Positions 5,385 to 37,563 of a stretch of DNA of 64,000 bases are shown here, piece by piece. The translations under genes were made by a program, and so were the position numbers. This DNA comes from Fibrobacter sp. (lineage in GTDB: Bacteria; Fibrobacterota; Fibrobacteria; Fibrobacterales; Fibrobacteraceae), in the NCBI GenBank assembly GCA_016285835.1, contig JAEERM010000002.1:17089-81088 (forward strand). The letters run 5' to 3'. Below the pieces are notes generated by a model. The model was not told the DNA's origin. It saw nothing but the letters and a program-made list of their open reading frames with translations, and ran no database searches. Within the stretch, counting starts at the first letter, position 1; each line of letters begins with the position of its first letter.

Positions 5385-8300
5385 TTAGGGATTTTCTTCG
5401 GATTCGTCCTTTACTTCATAAGTGACGGAGCAGAGGAGCTCACTTCCCCACAGATTGTAGGTGTACGTTCCCGGAGTTGTGGGCACGTAGGCATCCAGGT
5501 CCACGAACCCGTCCGCTGACCAGGAACCAGTACTCACCGTGTTGCCATAGGGCGTCCCGTTGTCATTACGGTTCAACGAGACACTGTATATTGTCTCACC
5601 GGTGTTCTTGTTCTTAGTCTTGAAGCGGCCATTCTCAATGTAGCAATCGGCTTTAATTTCAGCCGGTGCTGTATATTCGTAGTTCACGGAGCAAGCTTCC
5701 TTGCCATTGATGCTCAGCACGAGTACATACTGCCCACTGACCGTAATAGCCGGCAAATGTTCACGGAAGGACGTCGTCGAAGAAGACGTACTCTTCGCCT
5801 GACCAATGACATTGCCCAAGTAATCCGTATACCAAAGTTTCACAGAGCTGTTTCCACCAGAAGGCAGAGAAAGGTCGGCCGTGAAGGTACTGTCGGAGAA
5901 GTCAATAGCGCAATTGGTCGCTTCGCCGTCTTGCCCATCCTTGAAGGTGACCGAGGCTTCGCATGTAAGGCCACCGTATTCCAGTATGTACTGGTAGGTC
6001 CCGGCCTTAGTGTTGATGTTGGGCATCCAGCTTGCCACGAGTCCGTCATCTCGGTAATTCAAGGTAACAGGGGCCTCGCCACCCACAGTCGCAATCACAG
6101 AGCACCCACCTAGCGGACAGTTGGTAATGCTGTAATTGATGGCAGGCATTTCATCGCCCGCGACAAGTTCACCATGTGTCGAAACGCTACAAGTAAATTC
6201 GTTCCTGGACAGCACCACAGGATCCGTTGTGCAAGTCGTTTTCTGGCTCTTATTGTCCTTGGCGGTCGTAGTCACTGTAAAGGTATAGCTACGCTGCAAG
6301 TCACCGCTGTTATTCAAGTTTTTATAGACGTCAACAGCAGGAATGTAGAATACACCATCCGACGGGCAATCCTTTTCGGCGGTTCCGTATTTTTCAGAGC
6401 CATCCACCTTACAAACTGCAGCGCTCGCATTAGTTATCGTCGAGTGGACAACAAAACGGTCTCCTTCAATTTGCGCAGAGCATCCCAAAACGCCCACCGT
6501 ATTCGGGCAAGAACTGGTGAGGCCCGAGAGGGTGAAGGCATGGGCACTGCTGAATTCAATGGAAACGACTTTTTCAGGGTCAAATTCCTGCATGTCGGCC
6601 ATCAGGTTCACATCGCGGTTGAATCTCCCGTTTCCGTTAATCTGGAATTCCTGCGATAGTCGGCCATTTGCATCCTTCATAATCATCGAAATTGTCGGAG
6701 CAATACCGCTGTTCGGGTCTTCGGGAAGGCCAGACACATCTCCACTCATCGTAGAGGAGCGGAGGTTGGCGATGCCGCCAGAAACAGAAACCATGCAACT
6801 CGTCTGGTTGACGCAAGCATCTGTCGAGAAAGAGACATCCTGAGCACATTCCGTGATATCACCCACCATGAAACGGCCGCAACTGGCCGTATACAAATGG
6901 CCATTGCCTCCGCTGCCACTGCAATCTACAGTCACACTCGCCTCACGGACAGAGCCATAGACGGCCGATCCATTGTAGTTGTAGGTCTTCGACATACCAT
7001 GGAGCCCTGCAACACCAAATGTGTATGTCGAATTCTTGAGTGTATTCGCAGATTTTCCGGTCACATAGTAGGGGCCATCATCGGTATTAAAGTTACAAGA
7101 AGAGCAATGCGTCGTTCCATCAAGCCACGGATCGCAGCGATTCGTGAGCAAATTGTCATCGAGATCGCAACCATTATAGTGGTACGACAGAGTGCAGCCA
7201 TCGTGCATTTTCGTCGGATCCGTCGGATCATTGAACCACTTGGACAAACCGACCCACGGGGTAGTTTCTTCGTTCAGAGGCAGGATGCCGCCCAAGTAAT
7301 TCGTGGCGAAGGAACACGTGACCTTGGGAATATCAAAGCAATCCTGACCATACCAGTCATTCGATTCCCAGCCCAAGTTATACACCTTGAAGCAGTCTTC
7401 TGCAAGGCTCAGCCCCACAAACTGCCCGTAACTCGCCGGGATGGTCAGCGGGAGCGATACGGTAGAACGCACCCAAGAAGAGCCGTTCTTATAGCTCAAC
7501 TCGATAACCGCATTATCACCGCGGACATCAACATTGACATTGAATGCCGTATTGGCGAACTCAGAACTGGTCAAGCGGATTCCAAAGGGTTTCTCGGCAC
7601 TGCAATGCGCTTTGCTCACATTATTAATCCCAGTACCATCACCTTCGCACATCCTAGCAACCACGCTGAAATTCCCGGATTCTTGTATTCCATAAATACT
7701 CAGAATAGAATATTCACCGGCATTGTCGCTAGAGCGCAAGATAAATCCGCTGTTCATCAAGGAATTTTTCTTATTGCCTTGCATTGCACAAGATTTGAAA
7801 CGGGACATCAGGAGCCCATGGCCTCCCGCCTCGGCCCTGTTGAGTAGATAAGTCACAGTAGCATTGCTGCTGTTCCCGTTACCGGAGCCAGAATAGTAAA
7901 TCGCATCGGCATCTCTAGAAATCTCCGCATAATTGTGCCCGCTATTCGTGCGAGGCACGAGCCAGTGAGATTCAGGACGTAAACCGTCGCCCTTGACGCT
8001 GCAACTATTCTTTTTGCCGGTAGAAGTACACTTGTCAATACATTCACGGCTACTCGTCGCCGAGCACCAACCCGATTCCGTATCCTTGAAATCGGTATAG
8101 AAACAATGGTTTTTGTTCTTGTTGAACACGGCATGCACCAAGGTATCTCTCACAGCCAGAATTTTGAGTGTTTGATCACTCGAGGCACTATAGACCTCTC
8201 CCGTCGAGGCACTCTTTATGAATTGCCATTGGCTAAATTCATCGTTTCCATTTTCCTCATATTCCAAGAACACACTATCACCCGCGAACATGGGTATTTC

Positions 8301-11300
8301 GCAGGAATTCTTTGAATCACAAACCGAGGTCGCTACAGTTCCAGAAGCGTCCGTGGTGTAGTGAACTTTAACCTTGGAATTGTCGTTCACACCTTCCAAA
8401 AGAAGATTCAACTTGAAAACCTTCGCCTTGTATGATGCAAAGAAGTTATAGACTCCTTGATCATGCAAAGTTGCGACAGAAGAATCGTGAACAAACACTT
8501 CGCAGAAAGGCGAGATTACATCCTTTTCAAGGCGTACCGGGTCCCCGTTCACCAATCCACAGCGCCACCGTTTATTCTTCTCATTCGTATTTATCTCGGA
8601 ACAATTGGGCCGAACCCACTCACCCGCAGCACTGTGTAACAAGCTTCCAGCACAATCAGGGCGTTTGACAATATCTTCGCAAAGCTCACCATCAATGGTT
8701 TTATGCTTCTTGTTATCACAAAATCCCGTCGAAGGAATGTCTGAACGATTAACAAACGCCTCTCCCATCAAATTGACAGACTCATAACTCGGCTGGACAA
8801 TCGTCCCGTTTTCGTTACAGGATTTAAGACGGAAGAAAACGGTGCCATTGGTTGCCGAATTGTTTGCTGTCACTTTGAATATGGGTGTCGTTGAGTTACC
8901 CTCTAGCGCCACACGATAGGTCGTTAGTCCATTTGAAGAGCTGATTTTCACGACCGGATTCTCAGGCGAAATCTTCCAGTTTGCATCAGGGGGATCTTCC
9001 ACCGTAACATCAACCTCGATTGGCTTTTTTCCCTCGGTAACAAGACTTACTGTGACACCACTCGTAGAGGCATCGCCTGCAAAAAGACGTTCACTAGCAA
9101 CCTCAAACTTAACCCTAGTCGCCTCACCATTTTCTCCATCGACACTTATCCAGAATGGCATTTTCTTGTAGTTTTTTTTATCATTGGGCGTAAAAGAACA
9201 CTGATAGTTACCCGGAGACAACTTCCCATTGTGTGTAAGAACTTCGGTCATCGGGAAAGACGGGGTACAGTTCATTTGTCCCGCAGTCAAATTCATTTTA
9301 CCCCCATTCAAATTGACAATGCTCAGGTAATCAGAAAGCCTCCCAGGAGAATCCTTTGTCAGGTAAATAATTCTCGGTAACAATACGTAGCTCGGTTTGA
9401 TGGTTGTATAACTCCCCGAAGTCAAATTATCATACTGCACTTCCTTGTTCCTGTACTGAGATTCAAGCGTTACAGAAAGTTGCGGAGCATTAGAAATGTA
9501 GTAGTTGTCAAAGCCATTCACCAATTCCTCACCATCCGTGACAATCGTGGGATCTTTATCGTCTTCTGGGACATTACCACAACCTATTTCATTTTTACCG
9601 CAAATTATGTAATTGTCGACGAGATCCTGCTGCAAGGATTCGTCGAATCGAATAAATATGTTGTCCGAGTTGGTATTCTGAATCTTGGCGCAATTCTTGC
9701 CCGCCATGAAGAAGGTGCCATCCCACACCCTAACGTTACGACCATCAATTTTCTTCGTGTTTGAGTTAAGCATAAACATTCCAATATCACCCTTAGAATA
9801 GACATAATAGCGGTGAGTTCCAGCTCCTTCACCGATAACCTGGCTTGCGCCGTTACCCAAATAGACAAAAACATTTGACCGGGCCGTCGTCTCAGGGAAG
9901 TTTATATTTCCAAGTTTGTTTGCCGCATAAAAGATAAAGTTTCCGTCCAAAGTTCCGCTGGGATTATTGAATACATTTTTAGAACCGAGATTGACCACAA
10001 GATAACCATGATAAAGATTCTCAGGAGCCGCTTTTTTCCAGCAAGTGTTGAGCGCAGACACATTGAAGTTATCAACGTTCTTGCCATTAAGGCAGGTGGT
10101 CTTCTTATCGTAGTCCTTAAATGCATCATAAGCAGTTGTGATGCCATCTTCAATCTGGTAATTAGTGCCATTACATCCTTTTTGCTTGGTACCCAAAATA
10201 CTTTTACAATAGTCAACAATGCTCGTATTGCATTGCATCGAGGATGTCGAAGAACTCACCACATTTCCGAATGTCTTAAACATGTTATAGTCCTGCACAT
10301 ACGTAGTCGGAGATTGTTTCGGCATATTCGTGCAGCCATTGTAGTTAACACACTTTTGCGCACCTTTTATATATACGGACTTGCCTTGTCCACCGAGAGT
10401 CAAGTGCTTCGCACTGAATTCTTGCGATAACCCGCCATCATGATTCGGACCACTACCACCAAACGGAGACGATTTTTCAAATTTGACATGCCCCTTTGCA
10501 ACAAAATCATGCTGCAATTTCGCAACATAAAACTCGGCCGAAGGCCCCATACAGAAATTTCCTTTGATTTCCGCATCTTTTGTATCGTCTGGCGTGAATT
10601 TTCCATTTACGGTAAGGTCCCCACCCACCACAAATTTATAACCCGTATTCGCCATAAAAAGATTCTTTTCAAAAACGGCATTGCCCCCTAGATTCAACAT
10701 TAAATTAGTCGCATTTCCCATCACATAGAGGTCTCCGCCAGTTAAAGCTTCGTTCTGATATTTCAAATCCCCCGCAATACAAGCGCGTTTACCCGCGCTA
10801 ATGTTGTTACCGCTAAGTTCCATATTTCCCGTAATCACTAATTCATCTTGTATTATAAACGGGTTTCCGCTCCAGTTCCCGTTAATCAATGCAGAAGACG
10901 TCGTAAAGCCCTCCGTCGAATGGACGGAAGAACCGACATACGCATACGGGTTATCGACATGCTTGTGAACAACAATCTGCGGAACCTGGACCTTGTAAAG
11001 GCCACGAACATTGAATACAGCCGTCTCACTATATTTCGCATTCCCGCGAGAAGTTCCCGTCGACACGACGGTGAACTTGAAGGCCGAACCATCGGCATCG
11101 ACACCTGTCAGCCACACTGAAAAAAGTTGCTTTCCGCCATTCATCCCACGCACAACACTCGTAAGAGCAACGGGTTTCTTTTTACCATCGTAATATTGCC
11201 GGACAATGCCGCCCACATCATTCGCATGGTAAGTCATCCACGACCGGGCACTTTCGAGACCAGCATGGGCGGCTTCCCTCGCCTCAGACATAGCCATGCG

Positions 11301-11429
11301 TTCTGCACTCGTGAATCCTGTACTACTGAGCCACTTGTACGTAGCCGTAGCAGCAATCGTCGCAACCATCATGAAGATGAGGACTGTTATAAGGGATACA
11401 CCTTTCTTTTTTAGGCAATACATGTTCAT
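5385..11429 (-). CDS. Giant PilX/GspK-like minor pilin, 2014 aa (cluster 3)
   Basis: N-terminus MNMYCLKKKGVSLITVLIFMMVATIAATATYKW (prepilin-like, no Glu5); conserved modules shared with 13068-19505 and 27602-35242. Confidence 0.85.
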   Translation of the reverse strand: MNMYCLKKKGVSLITVLIFMMVATIAATATYKWLSSTGFTSAERMAMSEAREAAHAGLESARSWMTYHANDVGGIVRQYYDGKKKPVALTSVVRGMNGGKQLFSVWLTGVDADGSAFKFTVVSTGTSRGNAKYSETAVFNVRGLYKVQVPQIVVHKHVDNPYAYVGSSVHSTEGFTTSSALINGNWSGNPFIIQDELVITGNMELSGNNISAGKRACIAGDLKYQNEALTGGDLYVMGNATNLMLNLGGNAVFEKNLFMANTGYKFVVGGDLTVNGKFTPDDTKDAEIKGNFCMGPSAEFYVAKLQHDFVAKGHVKFEKSSPFGGSGPNHDGGLSQEFSAKHLTLGGQGKSVYIKGAQKCVNYNGCTNMPKQSPTTYVQDYNMFKTFGNVVSSSTSSMQCNTSIVDYCKSILGTKQKGCNGTNYQIEDGITTAYDAFKDYDKKTTCLNGKNVDNFNVSALNTCWKKAAPENLYHGYLVVNLGSKNVFNNPSGTLDGNFIFYAANKLGNINFPETTARSNVFVYLGNGASQVIGEGAGTHRYYVYSKGDIGMFMLNSNTKKIDGRNVRVWDGTFFMAGKNCAKIQNTNSDNIFIRFDESLQQDLVDNYIICGKNEIGCGNVPEDDKDPTIVTDGEELVNGFDNYYISNAPQLSVTLESQYRNKEVQYDNLTSGSYTTIKPSYVLLPRIIYLTKDSPGRLSDYLSIVNLNGGKMNLTAGQMNCTPSFPMTEVLTHNGKLSPGNYQCSFTPNDKKNYKKMPFWISVDGENGEATRVKFEVASERLFAGDASTSGVTVSLVTEGKKPIEVDVTVEDPPDANWKISPENPVVKISSSNGLTTYRVALEGNSTTPIFKVTANNSATNGTVFFRLKSCNENGTIVQPSYESVNLMGEAFVNRSDIPSTGFCDNKKHKTIDGELCEDIVKRPDCAGSLLHSAAGEWVRPNCSEINTNEKNKRWRCGLVNGDPVRLEKDVISPFCEVFVHDSSVATLHDQGVYNFFASYKAKVFKLNLLLEGVNDNSKVKVHYTTDASGTVATSVCDSKNSCEIPMFAGDSVFLEYEENGNDEFSQWQFIKSASTGEVYSASSDQTLKILAVRDTLVHAVFNKNKNHCFYTDFKDTESGWCSATSSRECIDKCTSTGKKNSCSVKGDGLRPESHWLVPRTNSGHNYAEISRDADAIYYSGSGNGNSSNATVTYLLNRAEAGGHGLLMSRFKSCAMQGNKKNSLMNSGFILRSSDNAGEYSILSIYGIQESGNFSVVARMCEGDGTGINNVSKAHCSAEKPFGIRLTSSEFANTAFNVNVDVRGDNAVIELSYKNGSSWVRSTVSLPLTIPASYGQFVGLSLAEDCFKVYNLGWESNDWYGQDCFDIPKVTCSFATNYLGGILPLNEETTPWVGLSKWFNDPTDPTKMHDGCTLSYHYNGCDLDDNLLTNRCDPWLDGTTHCSSCNFNTDDGPYYVTGKSANTLKNSTYTFGVAGLHGMSKTYNYNGSAVYGSVREASVTVDCSGSGGNGHLYTASCGRFMVGDITECAQDVSFSTDACVNQTSCMVSVSGGIANLRSSTMSGDVSGLPEDPNSGIAPTISMIMKDANGRLSQEFQINGNGRFNRDVNLMADMQEFDPEKVVSIEFSSAHAFTLSGLTSSCPNTVGVLGCSAQIEGDRFVVHSTITNASAAVCKVDGSEKYGTAEKDCPSDGVFYIPAVDVYKNLNNSGDLQRSYTFTVTTTAKDNKSQKTTCTTDPVVLSRNEFTCSVSTHGELVAGDEMPAINYSITNCPLGGCSVIATVGGEAPVTLNYRDDGLVASWMPNINTKAGTYQYILEYGGLTCEASVTFKDGQDGEATNCAIDFSDSTFTADLSLPSGGNSSVKLWYTDYLGNVIGQAKSTSSSTTSFREHLPAITVSGQYVLVLSINGKEACSVNYEYTAPAEIKADCYIENGRFKTKNKNTGETIYSVSLNRNDNGTPYGNTVSTGSWSADGFVDLDAYVPTTPGTYTYNLWGSELLCSVTYEVKDESEENP

Positions 11430-11438
11430 CTCGTCCCC

Positions 11439-12797
11439 CTAATCCCTCGGCCCGTTACTCGGAACGGGTACCACTAGTGAAATATTCGATTTTTCGCCGC
11501 CCCTGTTTACCGCGAGTTCCAGCAAGAACGCTTTCACATTCTTCTTATCCGGAATCAGAGGGACATAATTCTTGTCATCGAAGTTGTAATTCGCCGATTC
11601 GACTCTTCGCAACTGCAAATTCCGTATAGTCACCCTGCCCAACGCCGACGAGGGCGAATAGCTCGCGAAAGTGAATGCAAGACAAACGTTCTTCTCCTGT
11701 TTTTTCAAGCTAAAGCGGAAGGAACGCAAATTCGGTTCATAATCTGTCGCCGGTACATAGAACAAAAAGTCATCAAGATCCTGGACCAAGGTTCCATCCA
11801 AATGGCGAAATCCCACAGCAGCATGATCGCGGCCAGGGCAGAACAATCGACTATTGTCTGCATTGTACGGCAATTCAAACGAAATTTCATACGTCACGCT
11901 CGGTTCCAAAGTCACTTTAGAACAGAGGATGTTCCACTGGCTGCCGTCCACCGGCGCAACCCCCGTAAAGGCCTTGCCCACGAACACCTGGTTCACCTCT
12001 TTTCCCGTTGTAATGGGTTTATTGTGTTCTCTGTCGTAGTTGGACACAAAACCTGTAAGATTAATTTTTTCGCCCCCATCGGCAGGCGAAATAGAAAGGA
12101 AATGGAAATGCTCATCGCCACTATGGCCCGAAGCATATCTCGAAAGAAGCCTGAAAGGAGTTCCGCTCACCCCAGCACCGACAACAGGGAGCACGAGCGC
12201 TTTTTCCGCAGAAGTCGAGAACGCATCCCCGACAACGCCCGGCTGAGCAGGAATTACGTGGAATCGTTCGATATCGGAGGCAATTTCCACCACCACGGAC
12301 GGATCAGGGCAATCAGACGACGTTTTCGCTTTTATTTTTTCAACGACCGAACACTTACGGTAAAGGGACTTGCCACGTTTGAACCAGGCAACCTCTTCAA
12401 CGACATCAGCCTGTCCCGCCGAAGAATAGCGCAGGCGCCTCATCCTCAAAGTATCCGTTTCGCCATTTGCGGACTGGACTAGGTGGAACGACGATGAATC
12501 CGGAACTAGAGCGGATGGATCCATATAAACTTTAGGGGAAGCAACAAACATATCGGGCAAAGAGGCGCTGCCAGCTTCTTTATAGACCTTGGCCCCCATC
12601 TGCGACACATCAACAGAAAACATATCAGCAACTTTTTCCGCGACTTCGCTAGCCTTGAGCATGTTCTGAGTGCGTACTCGGAACTTGGTACTGTCACTGA
12701 AAGCACGGCCTGCAACAAGGACCACCACCCCTAGAATGGCGATATAGACCATAAGCTCCATTAACGTGAAGCCGCGTTTTTCACAATTCCCGTTCAT
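11439..12797 (-). CDS. PilW/GspJ-like minor pilin with large C-terminal extension (cluster 3)
   Basis: MNGNCEKRGFTLMELMVYIAILGVVVLVAG; start moved to the ATG at 12797. Ends 9 nt before the giant gene. Confidence 0.85.
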   Translation of the reverse strand: MNGNCEKRGFTLMELMVYIAILGVVVLVAGRAFSDSTKFRVRTQNMLKASEVAEKVADMFSVDVSQMGAKVYKEAGSASLPDMFVASPKVYMDPSALVPDSSSFHLVQSANGETDTLRMRRLRYSSAGQADVVEEVAWFKRGKSLYRKCSVVEKIKAKTSSDCPDPSVVVEIASDIERFHVIPAQPGVVGDAFSTSAEKALVLPVVGAGVSGTPFRLLSRYASGHSGDEHFHFLSISPADGGEKINLTGFVSNYDREHNKPITTGKEVNQVFVGKAFTGVAPVDGSQWNILCSKVTLEPSVTYEISFELPYNADNSRLFCPGRDHAAVGFRHLDGTLVQDLDDFLFYVPATDYEPNLRSFRFSLKKQEKNVCLAFTFASYSPSSALGRVTIRNLQLRRVESANYNFDDKNYVPLIPDKKNVKAFLLELAVNRGGEKSNISLVVPVPSNGPRD

Positions 12798-12886
12798 ACG
12801 CCCCGACGGTAACGTCCTCCAGAGGAGGACAATTTCAAACAACATCCCGAATCCACCGGACCCCGGAGTTCATAAAATAATAAAAA

Positions 12887-13067: not shown

Positions 13068-16000
13068 CTATTCAAAACAACTGGTTTGTACCCACCACCA
13101 AGCATCACTTGCATCTTGATTTATCCATTCTGGATCATCAGTTCTGTCTGGATTCACTTTATAACACTTTCCACTGGCCATGTTATCAAGCCCACTCTTA
13201 TAACATTTACCATGATAACCACCTTTACCATTTACAAAGTCCACACAAATATTTTGTTGCGCCGGAGCAAATGTCACCTTAAACGTGCACTCCTTGGACA
13301 CCTTCACACCATTCACATCACGGCTGATATTGAATTGATAATCCTTTTCACCAGTACCGCTTTGATCATAGAACGATACATTTCCGGAAGTGTAGCCAGA
13401 CCCACTTTCATATACCGTCGGCCCTTTTTTAATTTTCCATTCGCACTCTCCATCGCATCCACTCACGTTAGGAGAAACCACAATTGGGCTTTCGGGATTC
13501 TGTCCGGTCGTTGGCGAAGGACACGTCAAGGTCAGGTTAACATTGTTCACCGTATGCGTCACCGTACAAGCCGGATTACCATTCAAACTCAGGATGAAAT
13601 CATAGGTTCCATTGGCATATTCACCCAAATGCAAATCGAAATTCAGTGGGGCGTTAGAATTCGCAGCCACATTCTGTTGACCAAGCACATTGCCCAAGAG
13701 ATCAGATCTCGTGAGAGTTGCAGCGACATTCCCCATATTTCCGCCAGAAACAAATGCCGTAAAATGCCCCTGAGGCGTAATCTTACACTCTGATGCAGAC
13801 GCAGGAATAGACTCTATTATTTCAAAGCTACCCGACGTACAGGAACCGTAAACCTTTGTTTTTGTCGCATTATAAACCGTCACCGTATAGGAATAGGTTC
13901 CAGCACTCATCGCTGTCGCCGTATTCAGGCTCGGCGCCCAAGACATGGAGCCTTGAAGGGTCGAGCTATGTGCGTATTCCGTACCATCCGACAGAGTAAG
14001 GTCGTATACGCAGCCTCCAGCAGGGCAATTATTGGCTTCGACAACAACTGCCGGGACACCTCCCCCCTGCACAAAGCTAGTCGTAGGTCCATCAAGCCGG
14101 CAATTTAAGGAAACTGGGCTAAGAGGCATCGATGTCGCAGTACATTCGCTCGTTGGAGGAGTAAGTTCTGTCGCGGCATCATCATCGTACACCGACACCT
14201 TGAAGGAATACTGTTGCGCTTGAGTTCCTTCGTACAATCTATCTTCAAAATTTGGATCATCGATGAGGAATATGCCTTGTGAATTACAGGGGCCAAAATA
14301 AGTCGGTAAGGAAGATTCCGTTAGAGATTCCACCTTGCACTTCTTTGCAATCTGGAACGGGTCAATATTCGTACTTATACGCCACTGTCCTGCCGGAGTA
14401 TAAGTAACATCGTTTTCACCGCAATTCACGCTCAAGGTTGCCGAGCATTGGCTCGTAATGGAATCAATCGTATAAGTGCCGAACCCGCTTCTCAGAATTA
14501 TTTCTTTAACATGTTCCGGATCAAACCCATAACGGGAAGCAAAGTCCTTGTTTTCAAAATCGTTCACTGCGGAGGCCTCTAAATTTACCGCATCGGAGGT
14601 TTTGCCCGAGACATCTTTAAATGTAGCCGTAACCTTAGTCCCCGCGTCCATCGTCACATAGAACATCACTCTCGCATCGCGGAGATTTACTCCACCTTCT
14701 CTATTCAAAACAACTTTGTGCTCTCCGGTAATGCCCGATGTCGTCCCTGCCAAGCGTTCATTCTGGACACAAGTATGCTTTTGGCCCACATAAAACTCAC
14801 CGCAGCCAGCCGTAAACACTTTTCCGCGTTGCATACAATAGACCCTTACAGAGGCATTACGGACCGCTCCATTCAGGCTATCGTGCTGGAAGCCATGATC
14901 TCCTTCGTACTTGAAATAGAAGTTACCCGATCTGAGTTCGAGCGCATCATTCACAAGGCCACTCTCCACATATCCATCGGCTCCAATATTCCCGCCACAA
15001 TACGTTCCATTTATCAAGCCGGCACCAAGCAAACGTTTATATCTACCACTGGGCATATCGCAACCATTATAATAATACGAGATGTCGTCAACACAATCCG
15101 CACCTTTATCCGCGAACCACTTGGAATAACCGATCACAGGGGTCACGTCTTCATTGCGTGGGACCTGACCTGCCATATATTTAGCTGCAAAAGAACAAGT
15201 TATGGTCGGGGTGGCATAGCACTTGTCTTTATACTGTTCAGAGAACCAGCTTACATCGTACACACCAAAATCGGAATCACCCAATTTAAGCCCAACATAA
15301 GCATGTTCATCATCATCCAAGGAGCCACCCATTAAGGCAGAAAGCGCTTTCAAATCAAATTTTGCGACAGCACGCCTAAAACCGGATGCGCCAGGAACAT
15401 TCCCCATAATAAGTAAGCTATCTCTCTTATATATAGTCACATCGAAATTCAACGAGGCCCTAGATTCCCAAGAAAGCCCAGCCCCCGAAACGGAGTCTTT
15501 CAATCGAGCGGACATACAATTTGCCCCCTTTGCATAAGTTTCAGTCATCGAGACCGATGTCAAATAACAGACACGGGCAAACGTTTCCTTTGCTGTCGAA
15601 TTACGTCCAGTTGAATCAATTCCAAAGAAATTCACCGAAACATATTCCGTTCCAGCCCTATTTGACCTAATTACAAGGCCACTATTCAAGGATGTTTTGT
15701 CCACTTTTGTAGGGCTGGTTATATCCGTCCAAAGTTGAATATTATATGTACCTTCAATACCTGCATCCACAGTATTCATCATCATCGCAACATTTCCGTC
15801 ATCAGGCCGTTTTAAATATTTATGCGAGAAAATTTCCGGCCGAGCACGTCCACCACCATTACTATTTACAACGATCCAGTTGGCATTTTCATAGCGAAGG
15901 TCGTTATTTTTGCATGGCATCGACCCTTGACAATAATCTATACAATCAGGATCTTTGTTGTTTTTACACCAAATATCCGTTTTATTGAATTCCGCATAGA

Positions 16001-27543: not shown

Positions 27544-27566
27544 AAAAAGGCCCGCGGCTAGCGCGG
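27544..27566 (-). terminator. Terminator-like hairpin downstream of the giant gene 27602-35242
   Basis: aaggcccgcggctagcgcgggacc; related sequence at 26406-26428. Confidence 0.7.
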
Positions 27567-27601: not shown

Positions 27602-30600
27602 TTAGTAGTCGTTCGGGCAGGGGTACGTTTTACTTGGATTATCATCAAAATAGACTCTCCATGTAGATTCTCCACTAACATTTTCTTTTGTAAAGGTATT
27701 CGTTATATAATTACCACTATATTTATTTTGTCCATGATATGTGAAATAACAACCTTGTTTACAGCCGGTAGCTTGAACAACGAGAGAATACGATGTATAC
27801 ATTTTACATTTACCATACCAATCTTTATCACATGTCCTCTTGCAAGTTAAAGATTTCGGCATTTGACCACTAACACAATTAACAGCAGTACTTACATCAT
27901 TTTCCGCAAAATAAACTTTATAGCCAGAAGAACTATGAACACTTTGTACATCCGCTATTGTTATATCATAAGGGCCATGAGAAGAGCTTCCTTGATACTT
28001 ATATGTACAGCCACTTTCACACCCTACAGCTTGAACATAAATTTGTTTTCCATCCTGAATGCAAGACAATGATTTTTTCTTTACATTGAGATCCGCAGAA
28101 CAAGTCTTTCCACTGCCATTCAGCGTAAACACATACGTTCCCGCCGTTGCAGAAGTCGCCTTGAAATTGTTACTGCCATACGTAGAGAATTCTTCGTCAA
28201 GCTTGTTCAAGCCAGAGCCACTTGCAAAAACGGTATTTCCCTTCTTAATCGTCCAGGATTCATTCATTGCAGAGACCCCTGTAGCAATAAACTTGACATA
28301 GCCTTCATTATTGCTATACTCATCCTTTTCGAAACGACAGCTGCCTATACCGCTGGGAGTCATTCCTTCGTCTGTTATTTCAATCGTACAAGCAGCGGCA
28401 TCGCTACCGTTGAGGTACAGAGCATACGTACCGCCACCGGTAATTTCCTTCTCTATTGTTCCATTGGACTGGACTTCTCCAGAGTAGATTTCACCATTAT
28501 TTTTCTTGAGAACCCAAGGCCACTTGCAACTACCATCGGAGCAAGTACCGAAGGTCGCCGTGAACATTGCCTTTTGGTCTGAATAAAGTTTAGTCACATT
28601 GTTCCCGATATCGCAAGATGCCGGAATAGTTCCCATGACTGGGATTTTATCGGAGCATTCATCGATCTTCTTGCCATTGACCGTCAAGTCAAATGTTTCA
28701 ACCTTGGACACTGTAAATTCAACGTCCGTTGCACCATTTTCCAAGAGGTTCGTCACGCCAGAATATCCAACACCTGTCGGAGATCTTAATTCATAGCTAC
28801 AACCAGCACAATTTGTCGTGAACGTGTATTTAGCGAGTCCACCCCATTCGGTATTACCCGTAAATCCACAGTTCCCTACACTCAAAGCAGCGTTCGTATA
28901 TGTCACATTAAAGTCGCAATTAAACAAGCCTTGAGAGAACTCATCATCTGCCGAGACTGTGAAGGTGTAGGTTTTCGTTCCCACGGATCCCGGATCCGAG
29001 AATGTCAAGAGAGTATTGCCATCGTAGCCAGAGCCCTCGGCAAGGGTATTCCCGTTCCTCGTCACAGACCACTTACAAGAATTATCTTCGCAGCCGCCAA
29101 TCGCAGGCTGGAAACTGACCAACGCAGAAGCATCCTGGTTCTGGATGGACGGGCAACTGGAATTGAGGTTATTCATTGCTCGAACTTTCCATTCCTTAGT
29201 GCAGTAATTACCACCATACAGCAGCAACGAAACAAGGTAGTTGCATACACCCATGTTGCATTGGAACATTTCATGAGGAAGCGCGTACTTAAATTCGGCC
29301 ACAGATTGCTTAACACCCTCATTGAAGAAGACAGAGTCCGCCGTCGCAATCCTTTGGTTTTCCACTTCCAAAACATGGCCAAGATAGTCGGTATAGACAA
29401 TCCTTGCGGAGCCGGCAATGCTACCCTTCCAATAGCCTCCATCATCAAAAGCGATAGATGCAGCAAAGAATTCATTGCCATTTTCATCGATTTCAATTCT
29501 GGGATCGTTACAAACGCCCTTTTCTGGTTCTGGAGCTACGTAGAACTTATTGCTATCGATCGGGCAGCTATGTCCCATTACATCGAGCTGATATTCATAA
29601 GTACCCTTATTCAACTTATTGTGTTCGGTATTAATCGCTGTACAGCTTCCACCCGGACAGTTCTGGAATTGGTCACCTGCAACGAGGCTACCTTCCTCCG
29701 GCTCCAGCCCAAATTCGGCAGGATACGTAACCGTGTACGGGCACCCTCCCGAAGGACAGTTCTCAATACTGAATTTAAACAGAGGTATACCAAAGCCCTG
29801 TTCCACAGTATCAGCCGAAAGCGAACAATGCACTTTGAAGGGCTCATATGTTTTTGTGGGAGTTTCACATTCATCCAAAACTTGTCCATGAATATCCCTT
29901 GCTACAACCTTGAACGCGTAATTACGCTGAACAAACTGGCCATAAACGTTGTCTTGATCATAGAACTGGACAAAATCTTCGCCACAGGCCTGCGGTTCGG
30001 GAACATCTCCACTGTGGACTTCGAAACCATCTTCCAACGGAATAATTTCACAAGTTTCCGCACGTTCAGGATGAACAACGCTGGCGGACACAGTCCATTT
30101 TTTCGTCAGGAAGTCATACGTGCCATCCTTACAAGTAACGCTAAATGCATAACGGCACTTGCTTTGCACGTGATTCACCCGGAACACCTGCGAAACATTC
30201 TTGAAAAGGATTCCGCGTAGATTCTGGGGATTGAATCCTGCTGCATCCGATACAGATGCAACATCAATGGAATATTCCTTTTCACCAACCTTTTCCACAT
30301 TCAAATCGCTAATGTTGCTATCAACATCTACTAAATACGCATAAATTGTAGACGTTATGGCATCCTCTAGCGTAAACGAAAGCGAGGCATCGCGCACATT
30401 ATAGATGGTATCTAGTTCAATAAAGCAGCTACCATCCGTGGCATAACAATTTTCTGGGTATGAAAGCATTTCGGAGAAAGATTCATCGCACTGTTTGTAC
30501 TCACCCACAATAAAGTCGCCGCAACTAGCATCATACATGTGCGTATTGTTATTATTGGCATCTGCCGCACAAGTTACAATGACAGAAGCTTCATTGACTC

Positions 30601-33600
30601 GGCCTTTACCCCTAGAAGTCTGTATCGGGTAACCATGGTAACCTTCATCCTCGAACCAATATTTATCCGATTTGAGGCGGCCCTTCTTATATTTTTCCAA
30701 TTTCCTTGCAGAATATGTATACAGGCCCTTTCCACGCGGACGGACATAACTACAAACCAAATCATTCGTATTGTTCGCAATACCGTATTGTTTCAATATT
30801 CTGTATTCTTCCTGGAAATGACTATCATCTAAATCACAACCATTGTAGTAATACGTCACTTTACAATTCTTGCCTTCAAACCACGATGACATACCCACCC
30901 AAGGAGTGACATCTGCACTATCAGGAACCATTCCTCCAATATAGTTCGCCTTGAAGGAGCAATTCACCTTCGGAGTATCCCAGCAGTTCGCATCATAGTC
31001 ATAGCTTCGCCAGCCAATATCACGGAACTTATATTCCAGCGTGCCAAGAAGCCCAGTATACGGATGGCCCAAATTTATACCGACATACTGATGCGCATCA
31101 TCAAGAAGCGTCGTGCCGAATTTATTTTTCAGGTTAAAGGTCGCCTTCGCAGCACCCCATTCCCTGCCACCAAAATTTTTACTCAGGACGATTTCTACTT
31201 CTTCTCCATCCACATCAATATTGAATGTTAACGGAACATCACCAATATCAAGTTCTATTGATTCCGAACCAGCCGAGAACGGGACCTCGACACATTTTGA
31301 TTGATTATAATCCTGATTCTTAACATAGCAAAGGCGCGCAATCAATTTAATATTGTTTATCACATTCAACATGAAATATTCAGATCCATTTTCATTGGAA
31401 CGAATAATGAAACCATAGTCCTGCATTAAGGGCTTATTCATAATTTCGCTTATGATTTGCCCACCAAATGTCATTATATTGGTATAAAGATCCGGAATCG
31501 AGAACATTACCGTCATCAATCCATTAGACCCAGCCTTGACATTACTCAACAAGACCGATGCACTTCCCCTAGAATCAATGTCCAAATAGGGAATAATGAA
31601 AGCCCACTTCAAAGCTAACTGGTCCCTAATATAGTTCTTTGGAGTCAGCATACTGTTATCCGTAAAATCAGGGAATCTAAAGTTGCTTCCATCATTTGAA
31701 CGGACCATTAACCAATTAGAATTACTATAGCGGCCACCATAATTATCCGGATTAACAGAGCACACAGTACCCGTTTTACACTTGTCTATACACTGATCGT
31801 CTTCTTCATTACTCGTACACCAATCGGATTTTTTAAATTCCTCAAAGTTTGTATAGAAGCAGTGAGCATCCTTCTGACCAAACCAAGCCGTTACGGAGTC
31901 ACGCCCCCCCTGTAATGTCATCATCGTCGGCATGTCATTATTTTGCACATTTGGACCGTAAGGACAAGATTTTCCATTACAAGTCCAATACGAGAACCGT
32001 CCCGATCCGCCATCCTTTCCTAAATACACCGTATCACCGGCAAACAAAGCAAATTTGCAAATACCTTCCGAACAGGTCATATCTTCGCTATGAACATAGT
32101 CACTCATCAAGCGCTGATAATTGACGGTAACATTTGTCCCCTTGTTGGGCCCTTCAATCTTCACAACGAGAGTATCGCGCTTACGCTTAAGAGATGCGGG
32201 CAACCTGTATTCGCCCTTATGTGATTCCAATTTTTTATTGATTGACGGAACGTAAGCCTCGCACAACTGATCTGCAGAAAGGGTAGCTTCCAAAGAAACC
32301 CGAGATCCACCTGTATAACAGTTCCACTTATTGTTCCTCTCCAGAGGGAAGCAACCCGAACCACGTGCAGTCACCCATGTTTCTTTTTCATCATCCAGTA
32401 ATGTTCCACAAGGAGGCATCGCATACAGTTCGTTACACTCCATCCCGTATGCCTGTATAAAATCACCCAGTTCGCCCTCACTGAGCTGGCTACAATTCAC
32501 TTCTTCGCGAGAAACTCGCACTCGGTTTCCAATAAACACAACCGCTTCCGTGGGAGAGCGGATAATACAATTGTCGCAAACCTTGAGGTGCAGGTCTACG
32601 TCTCCGAGTTCCGCGTCCTCAGTGGTGCTCACGCGGAATACAGGAATATCATTCCCAGAAGGAATTGTATGCAGCGTATATATCTTCCAGCCATTTTCGA
32701 CCTCTTTCAAATTCAAATTTGCGTGAATGGGTTCCACAGACCAGCCATTCAACAAATGATTGGGCACCATGATGTCCAAATCCATTGCCGTTGCGCTCTG
32801 AGTTGTAGCCAAGCGTATATCGACACTGCTACCGGCATCAATTTCCCTGTTTTGATCGTCAGGATGGAATCTCACTTCGGCATTTTCGCCAAGAGTTCCT
32901 TCCACGACAACATAGACCGGGACATAGCCTGCAACATCATCACCATAACTACACAAATACTTCCCTTCCTGCAAGCTAGACAGTTTTGATTCCCCCGTGG
33001 GAATTTCATTGGGGCACTGCATCTTAGAGGCAACTTTCTTTGCCTTAGAACCATTCAAGCCAATAACATTGTAATAATCAGAAAGGCGGCCAAAAGCATC
33101 ACGAGGCAAGTAGATTACACGCGGCAAAACAATCTCCGACGGAACGACAGTCCCATACGATAGAGCCCCCTGCGGCAAAGGTTCTGTGTTCCTATACTGC
33201 GATTCCACATCGACAATCAACTGCGGAGATGTAGAAATATGGTAGGGATCGACCGTCTGGTACTGATTGATTCCAGCAAATCCAACCGCACCCGAGAAAT
33301 CCGAACACATATTGGTTCCATCATATTCGCAGAGCACCGAAGATTTAACAAGAGCTTTAAACAAAGTCGGATTAAAGGTTACTGACAACGTATTGTTACC
33401 CGTAAGCGTATTCAACTGCGAACAGCCCTGCATATACACAGAACCTAGAATCGGTGTTCCCGCTCTAGTATCAAAGCGGCCGATGTTGTCAACACTATAA
33501 ATAAAATAATTATATACGGCGTTAGCTTTATTTTGATTTGTTTTTAAGGCCTTCTCGGAAGACGTATTTTTCCATCCATCCGGCAAATAAATCATCACGT

Positions 33601-35242
33601 TGGCACTATAGTCCGTTTCGGGCAGTTCCAGCTCTGCCTGCGGGGCAGAAGAAGAATTAATGATGAAAATGAAATTACCAGACAATTTATCTTCCGTGGC
33701 ACGCCATTTAGGAGCATTGTCCCATTTTACGACAAGCCAAGTCTTATCCAAGAGTTGATTATCATTGTTCGCCGTATTGAAGCAAGTGTTCAGAGCTTGC
33801 ACAGGGAATTCGATATCGTTCTTCCAGATATCTTCATTACAACCGAACCTTGCATTTGCAGAATGAACAAAATCGGAATTCAATATACCCGTATTGAACT
33901 GTATCCGGTCCTTAGAGACCCCACACTCATCATACTTCTCGGACGAAATCATGTCGCGGTAAGCGGTCATTTCATTGGCATTCCAATCCCTATATTCTTC
34001 CTCCAACGGCATAGAAATCAAACTGCCTTTGTAAGCAACATAAATATTGCCGTTTGTAGACTTAGCACACTTGAACATGGCGCCACCACACACATTGCCG
34101 TCACTAATATTCTGGAAAGCGGACAAATAAAGTTTATCATCGGAACTAGAGCCGAATCGAGTCTTACTCACATAGTTGGCATTAATATTACCCGAAGAAG
34201 TCGAGTTATCACGGATGAATGCATTATGCAAGATTTCAATGGAATCCGTTCTCGCAGCAACAGCCGACGGGAAATTAATTCTACCATTCAAGACAAGGTT
34301 TTCACGCATCTTGATGTAACTGACACCCGTGTTCCCCGTAAAATGGTCAATATTGCCATTTGAGGTCACGTTACCATAAAAATCAAACTTGCCCCCCACA
34401 ACAGCGGGCGCCCCTCCAGGGAGACTCTGCGCATAACTAGAAAGGTTATTGATCCTAATTCCCCCATTTAAGTAGGAGGTCCCAGATACAGACAGCTTGT
34501 TACCAGACGCCGTTCCATATACCGTACCGCCAACATAAAGGTTTCCACTCACATTGAGGTTGTTCCCGAAAGACAAATCACCTGTAACATACAGGTCCTT
34601 CACATCGCCATTATTATTTACATAGAAATTTCCATCTAAAACAAGATAATCCGAAACGTTAATTTTGTTCAGAGCCTGTCCACCCGCTCCTGCAACCGCC
34701 GGAGTCTGTTTAATAAAGGCCGAAGACACTTCAATAACGTCAGCAGTTGCAAGCCCCCCGTAGAAGGCTTCCTTATAATCGACCTTGTGTTCTTCTGTGG
34801 GAATCTCGACTTGGTATAATCCGTTTACATTGAAGATAGCGACTTCGCTATACTTCACATTTTCCCTGGTAGTCCCCAACGAGACTATCTTGATCTTGTA
34901 CCTTGACGATTTTTCAACGTTCACGCCCATGAGCCAAACACTGTCCCTCATCTTGGCAGAGCCCATCCTCGGCAGCACAGAATTCAGCAAAATCGGTTTC
35001 TTCCCGTTTTCAAAGTATTGCTTGATAACGGCACCCAAATCATTACCGTTAAAGGTCATCCACGAACGGGCGGCTTCAATACCGGACAGGGCAGCTTGAC
35101 GAGCCTCGCTCACCTGCAGGCGAGCAGCCGACGAAGAGCCAATCGAGCTAACCCACTTGTATGTAGCAGTCGCAGCAATCGTAGCCACCATCATGAACAG
35201 CAGCACGGTTACAAGAGATACACCTTTTTTCATCTTTCTCAT
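27602..35242 (-). CDS. Giant PilX/GspK-like minor pilin, 2546 aa (cluster 1)
   Basis: MRKMKKGVSLVTVLLFMMVATIAATATYKWVSS (no Glu5), same modules as the other two giants, plus extra C-terminal Cys-rich repeats. Confidence 0.86.
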   Translation of the reverse strand: MRKMKKGVSLVTVLLFMMVATIAATATYKWVSSIGSSSAARLQVSEARQAALSGIEAARSWMTFNGNDLGAVIKQYFENGKKPILLNSVLPRMGSAKMRDSVWLMGVNVEKSSRYKIKIVSLGTTRENVKYSEVAIFNVNGLYQVEIPTEEHKVDYKEAFYGGLATADVIEVSSAFIKQTPAVAGAGGQALNKINVSDYLVLDGNFYVNNNGDVKDLYVTGDLSFGNNLNVSGNLYVGGTVYGTASGNKLSVSGTSYLNGGIRINNLSSYAQSLPGGAPAVVGGKFDFYGNVTSNGNIDHFTGNTGVSYIKMRENLVLNGRINFPSAVAARTDSIEILHNAFIRDNSTSSGNINANYVSKTRFGSSSDDKLYLSAFQNISDGNVCGGAMFKCAKSTNGNIYVAYKGSLISMPLEEEYRDWNANEMTAYRDMISSEKYDECGVSKDRIQFNTGILNSDFVHSANARFGCNEDIWKNDIEFPVQALNTCFNTANNDNQLLDKTWLVVKWDNAPKWRATEDKLSGNFIFIINSSSAPQAELELPETDYSANVMIYLPDGWKNTSSEKALKTNQNKANAVYNYFIYSVDNIGRFDTRAGTPILGSVYMQGCSQLNTLTGNNTLSVTFNPTLFKALVKSSVLCEYDGTNMCSDFSGAVGFAGINQYQTVDPYHISTSPQLIVDVESQYRNTEPLPQGALSYGTVVPSEIVLPRVIYLPRDAFGRLSDYYNVIGLNGSKAKKVASKMQCPNEIPTGESKLSSLQEGKYLCSYGDDVAGYVPVYVVVEGTLGENAEVRFHPDDQNREIDAGSSVDIRLATTQSATAMDLDIMVPNHLLNGWSVEPIHANLNLKEVENGWKIYTLHTIPSGNDIPVFRVSTTEDAELGDVDLHLKVCDNCIIRSPTEAVVFIGNRVRVSREEVNCSQLSEGELGDFIQAYGMECNELYAMPPCGTLLDDEKETWVTARGSGCFPLERNNKWNCYTGGSRVSLEATLSADQLCEAYVPSINKKLESHKGEYRLPASLKRKRDTLVVKIEGPNKGTNVTVNYQRLMSDYVHSEDMTCSEGICKFALFAGDTVYLGKDGGSGRFSYWTCNGKSCPYGPNVQNNDMPTMMTLQGGRDSVTAWFGQKDAHCFYTNFEEFKKSDWCTSNEEDDQCIDKCKTGTVCSVNPDNYGGRYSNSNWLMVRSNDGSNFRFPDFTDNSMLTPKNYIRDQLALKWAFIIPYLDIDSRGSASVLLSNVKAGSNGLMTVMFSIPDLYTNIMTFGGQIISEIMNKPLMQDYGFIIRSNENGSEYFMLNVINNIKLIARLCYVKNQDYNQSKCVEVPFSAGSESIELDIGDVPLTFNIDVDGEEVEIVLSKNFGGREWGAAKATFNLKNKFGTTLLDDAHQYVGINLGHPYTGLLGTLEYKFRDIGWRSYDYDANCWDTPKVNCSFKANYIGGMVPDSADVTPWVGMSSWFEGKNCKVTYYYNGCDLDDSHFQEEYRILKQYGIANNTNDLVCSYVRPRGKGLYTYSARKLEKYKKGRLKSDKYWFEDEGYHGYPIQTSRGKGRVNEASVIVTCAADANNNNTHMYDASCGDFIVGEYKQCDESFSEMLSYPENCYATDGSCFIELDTIYNVRDASLSFTLEDAITSTIYAYLVDVDSNISDLNVEKVGEKEYSIDVASVSDAAGFNPQNLRGILFKNVSQVFRVNHVQSKCRYAFSVTCKDGTYDFLTKKWTVSASVVHPERAETCEIIPLEDGFEVHSGDVPEPQACGEDFVQFYDQDNVYGQFVQRNYAFKVVARDIHGQVLDECETPTKTYEPFKVHCSLSADTVEQGFGIPLFKFSIENCPSGGCPYTVTYPAEFGLEPEEGSLVAGDQFQNCPGGSCTAINTEHNKLNKGTYEYQLDVMGHSCPIDSNKFYVAPEPEKGVCNDPRIEIDENGNEFFAASIAFDDGGYWKGSIAGSARIVYTDYLGHVLEVENQRIATADSVFFNEGVKQSVAEFKYALPHEMFQCNMGVCNYLVSLLLYGGNYCTKEWKVRAMNNLNSSCPSIQNQDASALVSFQPAIGGCEDNSCKWSVTRNGNTLAEGSGYDGNTLLTFSDPGSVGTKTYTFTVSADDEFSQGLFNCDFNVTYTNAALSVGNCGFTGNTEWGGLAKYTFTTNCAGCSYELRSPTGVGYSGVTNLLENGATDVEFTVSKVETFDLTVNGKKIDECSDKIPVMGTIPASCDIGNNVTKLYSDQKAMFTATFGTCSDGSCKWPWVLKKNNGEIYSGEVQSNGTIEKEITGGGTYALYLNGSDAAACTIEITDEGMTPSGIGSCRFEKDEYSNNEGYVKFIATGVSAMNESWTIKKGNTVFASGSGLNKLDEEFSTYGSNNFKATSATAGTYVFTLNGSGKTCSADLNVKKKSLSCIQDGKQIYVQAVGCESGCTYKYQGSSSHGPYDITIADVQSVHSSSGYKVYFAENDVSTAVNCVSGQMPKSLTCKRTCDKDWYGKCKMYTSYSLVVQATGCKQGCYFTYHGQNKYSGNYITNTFTKENVSGESTWRVYFDDNPSKTYPCPNDY

Positions 35243-35253: not shown

Positions 35254-36567
35254 CTAGTCCTTAGGACCATTACTTGGCGTAGGAACAACCAAAGCGACAT
35301 CACCCTTCTCGCCGTTCCTGCCTACCTGCAATTTAAACTTGAAAGCTTTAACTTTAGCTTTGTCCGGCAACGCCGGTTTGTAGGAATCAACAAACTCGAA
35401 ATTAGAGGTTTCCACTTTATTCAATTCCAAATTGCTAATGGCAACTCTACCCTTCGAGGCCATAGGTGAATAAAAGGCGAACGTAAATGCAAGACACAAA
35501 TCCTTCTTGGCATTTTTTACTGAGAATCGCATTGAGCGCTTATTATTCGCCGCGGCATCAATCGGCGGATAGAACGCAAAATCAGGCAATTCCGAATCCA
35601 TCACACCAGCCATATTACGGAATCCGACAGTCATGTGGTCCATACCCGGAGTAAATGAACGAACCATATTCTCGTTCAAGAACGGAATCTTGAAGGAAAT
35701 CTCATATTCCACATTCGGTTCCAAATTAACCTTCGTACAAACATCCGACCAAACCGAAGATAAAGGAATTACTCCCGTCCCCCCCACGACAAAAACCTGG
35801 TTCGCCTTTTTGGTGTCCTTCGCCTCTTCTGCATCCTCGTCATAATTAGATTCAAAATTGGTTAGCGTGACACTCGACCCACCCCTTTCAGGATCACGAT
35901 CTACATTGTAGAATTCGTTTCCCTGAATTCGAGGAAAAAGGCGGAAGGCTTGATCAGCAACATTCGCAGTTGAAGGCAGAAGCCGCGGAGAAACCCCTGC
36001 AACAGCACTATTGTAATCGCTGTTCAACACGGCAGGCTTAGCAGGAATCGCTTTGAACGATTCCACATTATCCAAGACCTCAACCGCAGGAGAATTTGAT
36101 TCAAGGCATGTTTCCGGTGCAGACGGGAGCCTGCTTTTATCTCGGTCAATCGTCTTGCAAACACGGAAGAGTTGTTTGCCCTTCAGGTACCAGGCGACTT
36201 CCTCGATGGAGAGAAAACGCCCCTGCGAATCGTAGTTCATACGTCGGAGAATCAAGGAATCCCCATTTATGCGGAAAGACGAGGAATCGCCCTTCTCGGC
36301 ATCCATGTAGACCATATTTGACTTGAAAAACACATCCGATGCAGAGCCGCTTCCCGATTCCTTCGCACTCTTCGCCCCCATCTGGGCAACATCTTCTTGT
36401 ATGAGCATTCCGGCTTCTTCGACAGTTGCATTGGCCTTGATCATGCTCTCGGTGCGGACTCGCATCTTGGTGCTGTTGCTGAACGCCTGCCCCGCTACGA
36501 TGACCACCACACCGACAATCCCGATGTAGACCATGAGTTCAACTAGGGTAAAGCCGGATTTTTTCAT
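35254..36567 (-). CDS. PilW/GspJ-like minor pilin with C-terminal extension (cluster 1)
   Basis: MKKSGFTLVELMVYIGIVGVVVIVAGQAFSNSTKMRVRTESM. Confidence 0.88.
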   Translation of the reverse strand: MKKSGFTLVELMVYIGIVGVVVIVAGQAFSNSTKMRVRTESMIKANATVEEAGMLIQEDVAQMGAKSAKESGSGSASDVFFKSNMVYMDAEKGDSSSFRINGDSLILRRMNYDSQGRFLSIEEVAWYLKGKQLFRVCKTIDRDKSRLPSAPETCLESNSPAVEVLDNVESFKAIPAKPAVLNSDYNSAVAGVSPRLLPSTANVADQAFRLFPRIQGNEFYNVDRDPERGGSSVTLTNFESNYDEDAEEAKDTKKANQVFVVGGTGVIPLSSVWSDVCTKVNLEPNVEYEISFKIPFLNENMVRSFTPGMDHMTVGFRNMAGVMDSELPDFAFYPPIDAAANNKRSMRFSVKNAKKDLCLAFTFAFYSPMASKGRVAISNLELNKVETSNFEFVDSYKPALPDKAKVKAFKFKLQVGRNGEKGDVALVVPTPSNGPKD

Positions 36568-37016
36568 CTTACCACGCTAGATACATTGACGGATTGTTCT
36601 GACCCCTTGAAGTTCCACGAAACCTTGACGTCCACCTGCTTGGCGTACACATGTTCAACGTTCTCGTAGTTGGACTTTGTCGTAGCCTTGTATTCGTTGG
36701 CATTGCCTACGGTCACGTCGGCCTTGTAAGTCACAGTGGATGTACCACCCGGACCGCGTTCCCAGGACTTGACGATGTTGTCTTTGCTGAACGACGCGAT
36801 GGATGCCACACCGACGGTCTTGAGGGAATCGATGATGTTCTGCGCCACCTCGACGGCGCCGTCGCGGCCGCGGATTCTGAGGAGCGCTTCGCGGTTGCCG
36901 ACCTGCATGTGCAGGAGGGCGAGATATAAAAAGCCGAGTACGGCGGCAGAGATGAGCACTTCGACGATACCGAAGCCGGACAAGTTGCCAAATATTTTTC
37001 TGCGTAAATCTTTCAT
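36564..37016 (-). CDS. PilV/GspI-like minor pilin (cluster 1)
   Basis: MKDLRRKIFGNLSGFGIVEVLISAAVLGFLYLALLHMQVGNREALLRIRGRDGAVEVAQ; start moved to the ATG at 37016. Confidence 0.87.
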   Translation of the reverse strand: MKDLRRKIFGNLSGFGIVEVLISAAVLGFLYLALLHMQVGNREALLRIRGRDGAVEVAQNIIDSLKTVGVASIASFSKDNIVKSWERGPGGTSTVTYKADVTVGNANEYKATTKSNYENVEHVYAKQVDVKVSWNFKGSEQSVNVSSVVR

Positions 37017-37020: not shown

Positions 37021-37563
37021 CTACAGGTCCGTCCAAGAATTGCCGCGATCGTAAGAGACTTGCGGGATAATGTTGTTCTTTTCTTTTTTCTTGAGCGCAC
37101 GTGCCTTCTTTTCGCCGCCACTGTATTTAACAACGATACACCCCTGTACCGGAGCCGCACTCAAGCCGAACTTGGGTTCGAAGGTATCTGTAACATCACT
37201 ATTATACCAACTGTTGGTGCAATCCTTATGAGTCGCATTCTCAAAAGTGAGCGCATTCTCTAGAGTGAGTTGGCTTATGGCTTTATTGATTCCAGCACTA
37301 TTGGGACATGCGCCCTTGACCGCATAAATCGTTTTGCCGTTATTACCGATTTTAACGCAAACCTTATCAGAAAAACGGTTTGCTTCGCTAGCCACGCGTT
37401 CCAGGTAAGCGGTGACATTCACTGCAGCGTCACGAACACGGTTGTTCACGATGGCCGCATGCAGGCTCGCGACACCCATCGTAGACAAAATACCCATGAT
37501 GGACACCACCACGAGCAGCTCAACCATTGTGAAGCCTTTTTTCATCTCTATAGAATGTTTCAT
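37021..37563 (-). CDS. FimT/GspH-like minor pilin (cluster 1)
   Basis: MKHSIEMKKGFTMVELLVVVSIMGILSTMGVASLHAAIVNNRVRDAAVNVTAYLERVASEANR. Confidence 0.85.
   Translation of the reverse strand: MKHSIEMKKGFTMVELLVVVSIMGILSTMGVASLHAAIVNNRVRDAAVNVTAYLERVASEANRFSDKVCVKIGNNGKTIYAVKGACPNSAGINKAISQLTLENALTFENATHKDCTNSWYNSDVTDTFEPKFGLSAAPVQGCIVVKYSGGEKKARALKKKEKNNIIPQVSYDRGNSWTDL

Follow-up and report, generated by a model that had tools for sequence, protein, structure and literature searches.

Candidate giant pilus-tip pilins with apparently exchangeable heads in the genus Fibrobacter

The window analysed here is a stretch of 64,000 nucleotides on contig C194 of a 3.5 Mb MAG that is 86% complete. A Fibrobacter-like host had been suspected, and GTDB indeed gives the name Fibrobacter to the sequence relatives of this DNA, one of which is the isolate F. 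intestinalis ATCC 43854. Three very long genes on the minus strand, called giants below, are located where the initial annotation placed them, at positions 5385-11429 (giant 1, 2014 aa), 13068-19505 (giant 2, 2145 aa) and 27602-35242 (giant 3, 2546 aa). Each follows a PilW/GspJ-like gene at a distance given as about 10 nt, for which we measured gaps of 9, 10 and 11 nt. The same annotation described three paralogous minor-pilin operons that each end in a giant, and this holds apart from the implied equality of the operons, whose gene sets differ: cluster 3 consists of GspH, PilV, PilW and giant genes, cluster 2 of PilV, PilW and giant genes, and cluster 1 of a PilW gene and a giant only.

All operon genes lie on the minus strand. 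Cluster 3 carries a GspH/FimU-like minor pilin gene (37021-37563; GspH profile, E = 3.8e-09), a PilV/GspI-like gene (36564-37016; PilV profile, E = 0.0024, and family synteny) whose start is likely an internal ATG, and a PilW/GspJ-like gene for 437 aa (35254-36567; N_methyl, 5.4e-06). Cluster 2 encodes a PilV/GspI-like protein of 166 aa (20841-21341; PilV, 0.0012; GspI, 0.0034) and a PilW/GspJ-like protein of 459 aa (19516-20895; N_methyl, 2.1e-07), and cluster 1 a PilW/GspJ-like protein of 468 aa (11439-12845; N_methyl, 5.2e-07). All three PilW-like proteins carry an extra C-terminal domain of about 200 aa, and the median length of their family is 472.5 aa.

Several other genes adjoin the giants. 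A PilA-like candidate major pilin gene (3158-3634, minus strand; N_methyl, 8.4e-10) lies 3' of giant 1, and a second, divergent PilA-like gene is on the plus strand (3957-4481; E = 1.6e-27 to the first). The presence of PilA-like genes beside cluster 1 is conserved in three orthologous loci (L035-L037). Directly behind giant 3 is a PDDEXK_2 (Rpn-like) gene (26463-27545, minus strand; PF12784, 6.4e-23), and directly behind giant 1 is a remnant-like fragment (4985-5347, minus strand) similar to the C-terminus of Rpn-like proteins, as judged from its translation and from a partial match about 505 nt behind the giant. As a separate observation, the product of the gene at 21545-23824 is predicted to be a lipoprotein and, oddly, also has a PPDK_N (pyruvate phosphate dikinase ATP-binding) domain (PF01326, 1.2e-17).

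The three giants are collinear paralogues with about 31% identity over about 2000 aa, rising to 51-56% in the pilin part, and a search for further copies in the window genome found none. They had been called modular, which applies mainly to the distal C-terminus; the remainder is one collinear family. Their common N-terminal segment, KKGVSLxxVLxFMxVATIAxTATYKWxSS, is present as claimed, as is the absence of Glu at mature position 5. Both points can be extended to a collection of 71 distinct near-full-length giants of 1.9-3.2 kaa. A class III signal peptide, with Gly at position -1 and a hydrophobic stretch, is found in 71/71, mature position +1 is Val in 70 and Ile in one, and position 5 is always Thr, Ala, Val or Met, never Glu. 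The Glu5 motif occurs in the homologues of the partner proteins (PilW, 83/90; PilV, 54/57; GspH, 47/48). Operon counts were made on 74 giant ORFs, every one of which directly follows a PilW-like gene; in most cases PilV and GspH genes come first, giving the HIJK order.

In profile comparisons, the N-termini of single giants match K-type minor pilins weakly. PilX_N is matched at E <= 0.1 by 50 of the 71 giants (best, 2.9e-7) and GspK by 63 (best, 2.5e-6). These scores are far below the curated 130-bit GspK cut-off because the match covers the N-terminus only, and no Pfam or NCBIfam model matched the window giants above its cut-off. When six genomes were searched with the GspK profile, matches appeared in five, and every match was a giant. 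PF03934 (T2SSK) was set aside as a marker, as it mostly finds short ORFs and proteins of about 800 aa that are presumed to be unrelated helix-hairpin-helix proteins. The initial annotation also supposed that the giants might replace PilY1. No Pfam match to PF05567 (PilC/PilY1) was seen in the giants, and a PilY1 search hit 0/168 genomes, but its control search matched nowhere either, so absence is not proven.

Giant 1 was modelled with AlphaFold as two overlapping halves, the residue numbering of the N-terminal piece starting at residue 3. The N-terminal half has a mean pLDDT of 84, with low confidence in the first ~40 residues. As the initial annotation had anticipated, its N-terminus is predicted to be a pilin (10947-11429, minus strand), with a signal peptide, a long helix (DSSP helices 11-33, 39-65 and 67-79) and a four-stranded antiparallel sheet (strands 100-109, 115-124, 130-140 and 142-146), the same region that matches the GspK N-terminus. 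A predicted beta-solenoid spans approximately residues 160-320 and apparently continues at about 495-592 past an insertion, after which sandwiches follow. The second half (mean pLDDT 83) is modelled as Ig/FN3-like domains. When the first half was compared with the PDB using Foldseek, the majority of matches were Ig-type, and sequence searches against solved structures returned weak Ig-type, solenoid or chance matches only.

Given the predicted pilin fold, the PilX_N and GspK matches and the K position in HIJK-ordered operons, the giants are best interpreted as tip-capping minor pilins, in line with the GspK/PilX-like assignment made earlier. The tip complex of type IV filaments is capped by a subunit without Glu5 (PMC10191384). 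We consider it highly probable that the giants are K-type tip-capping pilins with a giant ectodomain, and we infer that they reside at the tip and are displayed on the surface. A 321-aa pilin-like protein without Glu5 and without a Pfam match is present in some genomes; at locus L077 (24935-25897) it lies with a GspI-like gene in a possible canonical minor-pilin set (24552-25897) and may be a divergent canonical K subunit.

If the giants were type II secretion (T2SS) pseudopilins, the K subunit would cap a periplasmic pseudopilus and its ectodomain would recognize or expel cargo such as cellulases. The GspK profile matches and the HIJK order accord with such a role, as does a second secretin, of GspD type, in the window genome. 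However, each of four genomes checked has a single platform protein, which carries two T2SSF domains, and a single prepilin peptidase; separate pilM, pilN and pilO genes beside a secretin, which in genome G144 form one operon with it, are of the type IVa pilus (T4aP) type. Nor does a periplasmic cargo role create an obvious need for stalks of about 2000 aa, adjoining PilA-like genes or fast diversification of heads, and we therefore regard the T2SS interpretation as unlikely. In the window genome, a PilT/PilB-type ATPase gene precedes pilC. With one platform protein and one prepilin peptidase in each genome checked, a single T4aP-type machine probably serves several giant tips.

The initial annotation proposed an HMM search of Fibrobacterota genomes, and a profile built from the three window giants detected the family in 110/168 of them. 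It is found in 79/80 genomes of the genus Fibrobacter, the window genome counted, and in most genomes of the same taxonomic family, with weak matches only beyond it. The near-universal presence in the genus indicates that the giant clusters are not a chance finding. Matches labelled 'Bacteroidales' or 'Paludibacteraceae' (L098, L100 and L103) seem to be contigs of Fibrobacter placed in mis-binned MAGs. The three window giants have separate orthologues in other species, and contig JAFPWY010000010.1 carries giant 3-like, giant 2-like and giant 1-like genes in the same order as the window, as judged from their positions.

Outside the family, a profile of the N-terminal 163 aa found a 1504-aa open frame in the sister family and shorter ones, of 542 and 665 aa, in classes further removed. 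Homologues of about 1500 aa and of 538 aa also close GspH-PilV-PilW-X operons, which suggests that the giants may have arisen through stepwise enlargement of an ordinary PilX. Large grafts apparently occur on other minor pilins in related classes as well: locus L125 encodes PilV-like proteins of 532-535 aa (4005-5600 and 8906-10510), the second with a cadherin match (3.7e-07).

Conservation along the giants is uneven. Per-column values are about 0.72-0.75 in the pilin helix and N-terminus, versus about 0.2-0.5 over most of the ectodomain, and the last ~80-110 aa, often preceded by linkers rich in Ser or Gly, fall into many groups with no relationship to one another. We compared these distal heads by a whole-protein test, as an earlier head clustering may merge groups via the Ser-rich linkers. 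Of the 47 giant pairs whose cores are at least 45% identical, 25 carry heads that match nothing in the partner. The head of giant 2 is unrelated to those of its closest relatives. The reverse also occurs. L035_1760 and L036_1991 are 51% identical in the core and 90% in the head, and the head of giant 1 (last ~80 aa; 5388-5627, minus strand) is 64-86% identical to those of three orthologues with cores at 46-47% (in L036, core 46% and head about 86%). One pair with 99% core identity and different tails (L045 and L064) was removed as an artefact of a cut locus. Unrelated heads on similar cores, together with similar heads on diverged cores, lead us to conclude from sequence comparison that heads are exchanged as units between lineages.

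A conserved long stalk with a swapped C-terminal domain, at times with an orphan cassette behind it, is also the arrangement expected if the C-termini were contact-dependent toxins of the polymorphic type. Yet the heads are short, contain Cys and Trp, and match no toxin family, and no conserved small immunity gene lies directly behind the giants inspected, so that a toxin function appears highly improbable. Tail-like C-termini are also found on Fibrobacter lipoprotein-like ORFs (L076:21606-22883, L092:17061-18359 and L048:14055-15347), which suggests that they may serve as general-purpose binding modules.

Two relatives carry what appear to be silent cassettes, a feature that, like the exchangeable heads, had escaped the initial annotation. 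At L071 (UBA4223), an inverted ORF of 516 aa with homology to the C-termini of giants lies just 3' of the giant, and a perfect 61-nt inverted repeat joins the two in frame (8711-8771 in the giant, 12471-12531 at the ORF start). The part exchanged would be about 500-650 aa, comprising Ig-like modules and the head. At L077, a perfect, in-frame inverted repeat of 16 nt (17203-17218 and 17901-17916) marks the boundary of the head, and the inverted cassette shares 81-86% identity with the head of a giant from another species. Inversion in silico leaves the frames open at both loci, changing the giants from 2617 to 2460 aa (L071) and from 2492 to 2498 aa (L077). A systematic scan found clear cassettes with in-frame repeats at these two of the 65 giants with usable 3' flanks, and found none behind the three window giants; the evidence for inversion is drawn from two metagenome assemblies.

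A tyrosine recombinase (PF00589, 2.5e-16) forms a giant-linked subfamily with at least 88% identity in 6/80 genus genomes, the next homologues having about 36% identity or less. In all six it is encoded, by position, beside giant operons (L080:6144-7157; also in L072, L077, L092 and L096), and in several it lies between two divergent giant operons. Both cassette genomes are among these six: L071 has the assembly prefix DFTB01 in common with L092, and the contig coordinates of L077 correspond to G115:C3. The subfamily is absent from the window genome, which has a homologue of about 36% identity elsewhere. At two such loci, L127 (G115:C3) and L130 (G073:C31), divergent GspH genes start with perfect inverted repeats of 96 and 90 nt. 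These are compatible with inversion or with gene conversion, which could also generate perfect repeats, and possibly reflect an operon-level switch.

The repeats and cassettes could instead be by-products of duplication, of gene conversion or of Rpn-like insertion behind giants, with no programmed switching. PDDEXK_2 genes are enriched there, within 1.5 kb of 12/57 giants versus 1.1 expected (a figure that assumes an even spread, for loci that are giant-centred), window giants 3 and 1 included. They also lie behind both silent cassettes. Repeat-joined cassettes are as rare as the scan indicates. On the other hand, each cassette is in inverted orientation and in frame, its junction falls precisely at the edge of the exchanged segment, and the rare giant-linked recombinase is present in both genomes. 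We judge a by-product origin to be a serious contender that falls somewhat short of even odds. Switching by DNA inversion in some relatives stands at about even; we infer it strongly for those relatives and not for the window genome, with the recombinase presumably acting on these repeats to drive the inversion.

No recognized carbohydrate-binding module was matched in the window giants. CBM64 was matched in 2/31 giant C-terminal parts (best, 0.0014), and a CBM5/12 match of 3.6e-4, below cut-off, was seen in the ~1500-aa homologue of the sister family. The most notable non-Ig match of the N-terminal half from Foldseek was to 4wa0, an adhesin domain of Caldicellulosiruptor kronotskyensis (E = 1.5e-4; TM 0.44 on the target), at 12% identity and with a large rmsd of 11 Å. 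4wa0 belongs to the tapirins, cellulose adhesins encoded beside type IV pilus genes; it is a fold lead only, and tapirins are not 2000-aa pilins. Polysaccharide adhesion by the giants is plausible, with the 4wa0 and CBM5/12 matches as its only leads, and we lean towards adhesion through the distal head.

Rapid head turnover and apparent inversion switching are also typical of antigenic variation, and shufflon PilV heads choose recipient cells (PMC9045228). The head variation might accordingly stem from phage receptor use, predation or competition, the giants functioning mainly in evasion or cell-cell recognition and not in binding plant fibre. However, the tail-like C-termini on lipoproteins favour general-purpose binding modules, and type IV pili have been implicated in cellulose adhesion by F. 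succinogenes (PMC4704652, PMC3079729). We consider evasion or recognition rather unlikely as the principal role.

We favour an explanation, to which we assign a probability of roughly 0.7, in which each giant would be the K subunit of a GspH-PilV-PilW-K complex on a T4aP, with exchangeable heads and, in some relatives, inversion. This complex would prime and cap the pilus. The N-terminal ~145 aa would form the pilin module, and the missing Glu5 would fit a subunit with no neighbour above it, so that the other ~1900-3000 aa would extend outward from the tip as a beta-solenoid, then a stalk of Ig/FN3-like sandwiches and then an exchangeable head of ~80-110 aa. One machine, with one PilC platform and one prepilin peptidase, would build pili bearing one of several paralogous tips, so that the cell could draw on a range of binding specificities, whose targets are most likely plant polysaccharides or other surfaces. 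Recombination would exchange heads between lineages, and in some relatives the inverted silent cassette, in-frame repeats and linked tyrosine recombinase would allow the DNA to invert and the head to be switched, a functional parallel to the PilV shufflon found on conjugative plasmids. In the most extended form of this proposal, which is more tentative and which we rate slightly below an even chance, the giant tips would display a surface-binding repertoire, lineages would trade heads, and some species would also switch them reversibly when a recombinase inverts the silent head cassettes, making a chromosomal shufflon-like tip switch in this fibre-degrading gut bacterium.

Modular tip pilins and shufflon-like variation are known kinds of system. 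The giants resemble the K subunits of PilHIJK/FimU-PilV-PilW-PilX and T2SS GspHIJK in gene order, class III signal peptides, lack of Glu5 and use of one machine (PMC10191384), but GspK has just a small extra alpha-domain (PMC8179133), whereas the Fibrobacter K proteins are 1.9-3.2 kaa long, with solenoid, stalk and head, and occur as several complexes per genome. Like the modular pilins S. sanguinis PilB/PilC, CofB and Thermus ComZ, which carries a beta-solenoid (PMC8179133), they appear to have a binding module grafted onto a pilin for display. The most extreme multi-domain protein in an InterPro survey has 860 residues (PMC8179133), and the giants have 2-4 times that length; as the N_methyl model does not match them, surveys of this type would overlook them. 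PilC/PilY1 adhesins are likewise large and modular, with a proposed position at the tip on top of HIJK, but they are not pilins; in Fibrobacter, the K pilin itself would carry the adhesive mass as a fusion.

The relatives share with the R64/TP114 PilV shufflon a variable minor-pilin C-terminus (69-113 residues in TP114 PilV; PMC9045228), inverted silent cassettes and a tyrosine recombinase. In-frame inverted C-terminal segments with repeats are found at L071 and L077, and the linked recombinase in six relatives. The Fibrobacter version differs in being chromosomal, with a single cassette and a T4aP K subunit that has a giant stalk; the likeness described here is one of organization, and the switching is putative. 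The literature examined offers no precedent for the giant size, for several such tips on one machine or for the head exchange, and its Fibrobacter papers mention small pilin genes only.

The giants are five to ten times the usual size of a pilus-tip protein. Pili have been implicated in the attachment of Fibrobacter to plant fibre, for which the adhesin is not known, and the giants offer a concrete and near-universal set of adhesin candidates in the genus, with a head that can be tested. If the proposed explanation is true, tip pilins would reach more than 3000 aa, one machine would carry several alternative tips, and chromosomal head-switching would join the biology of pili.
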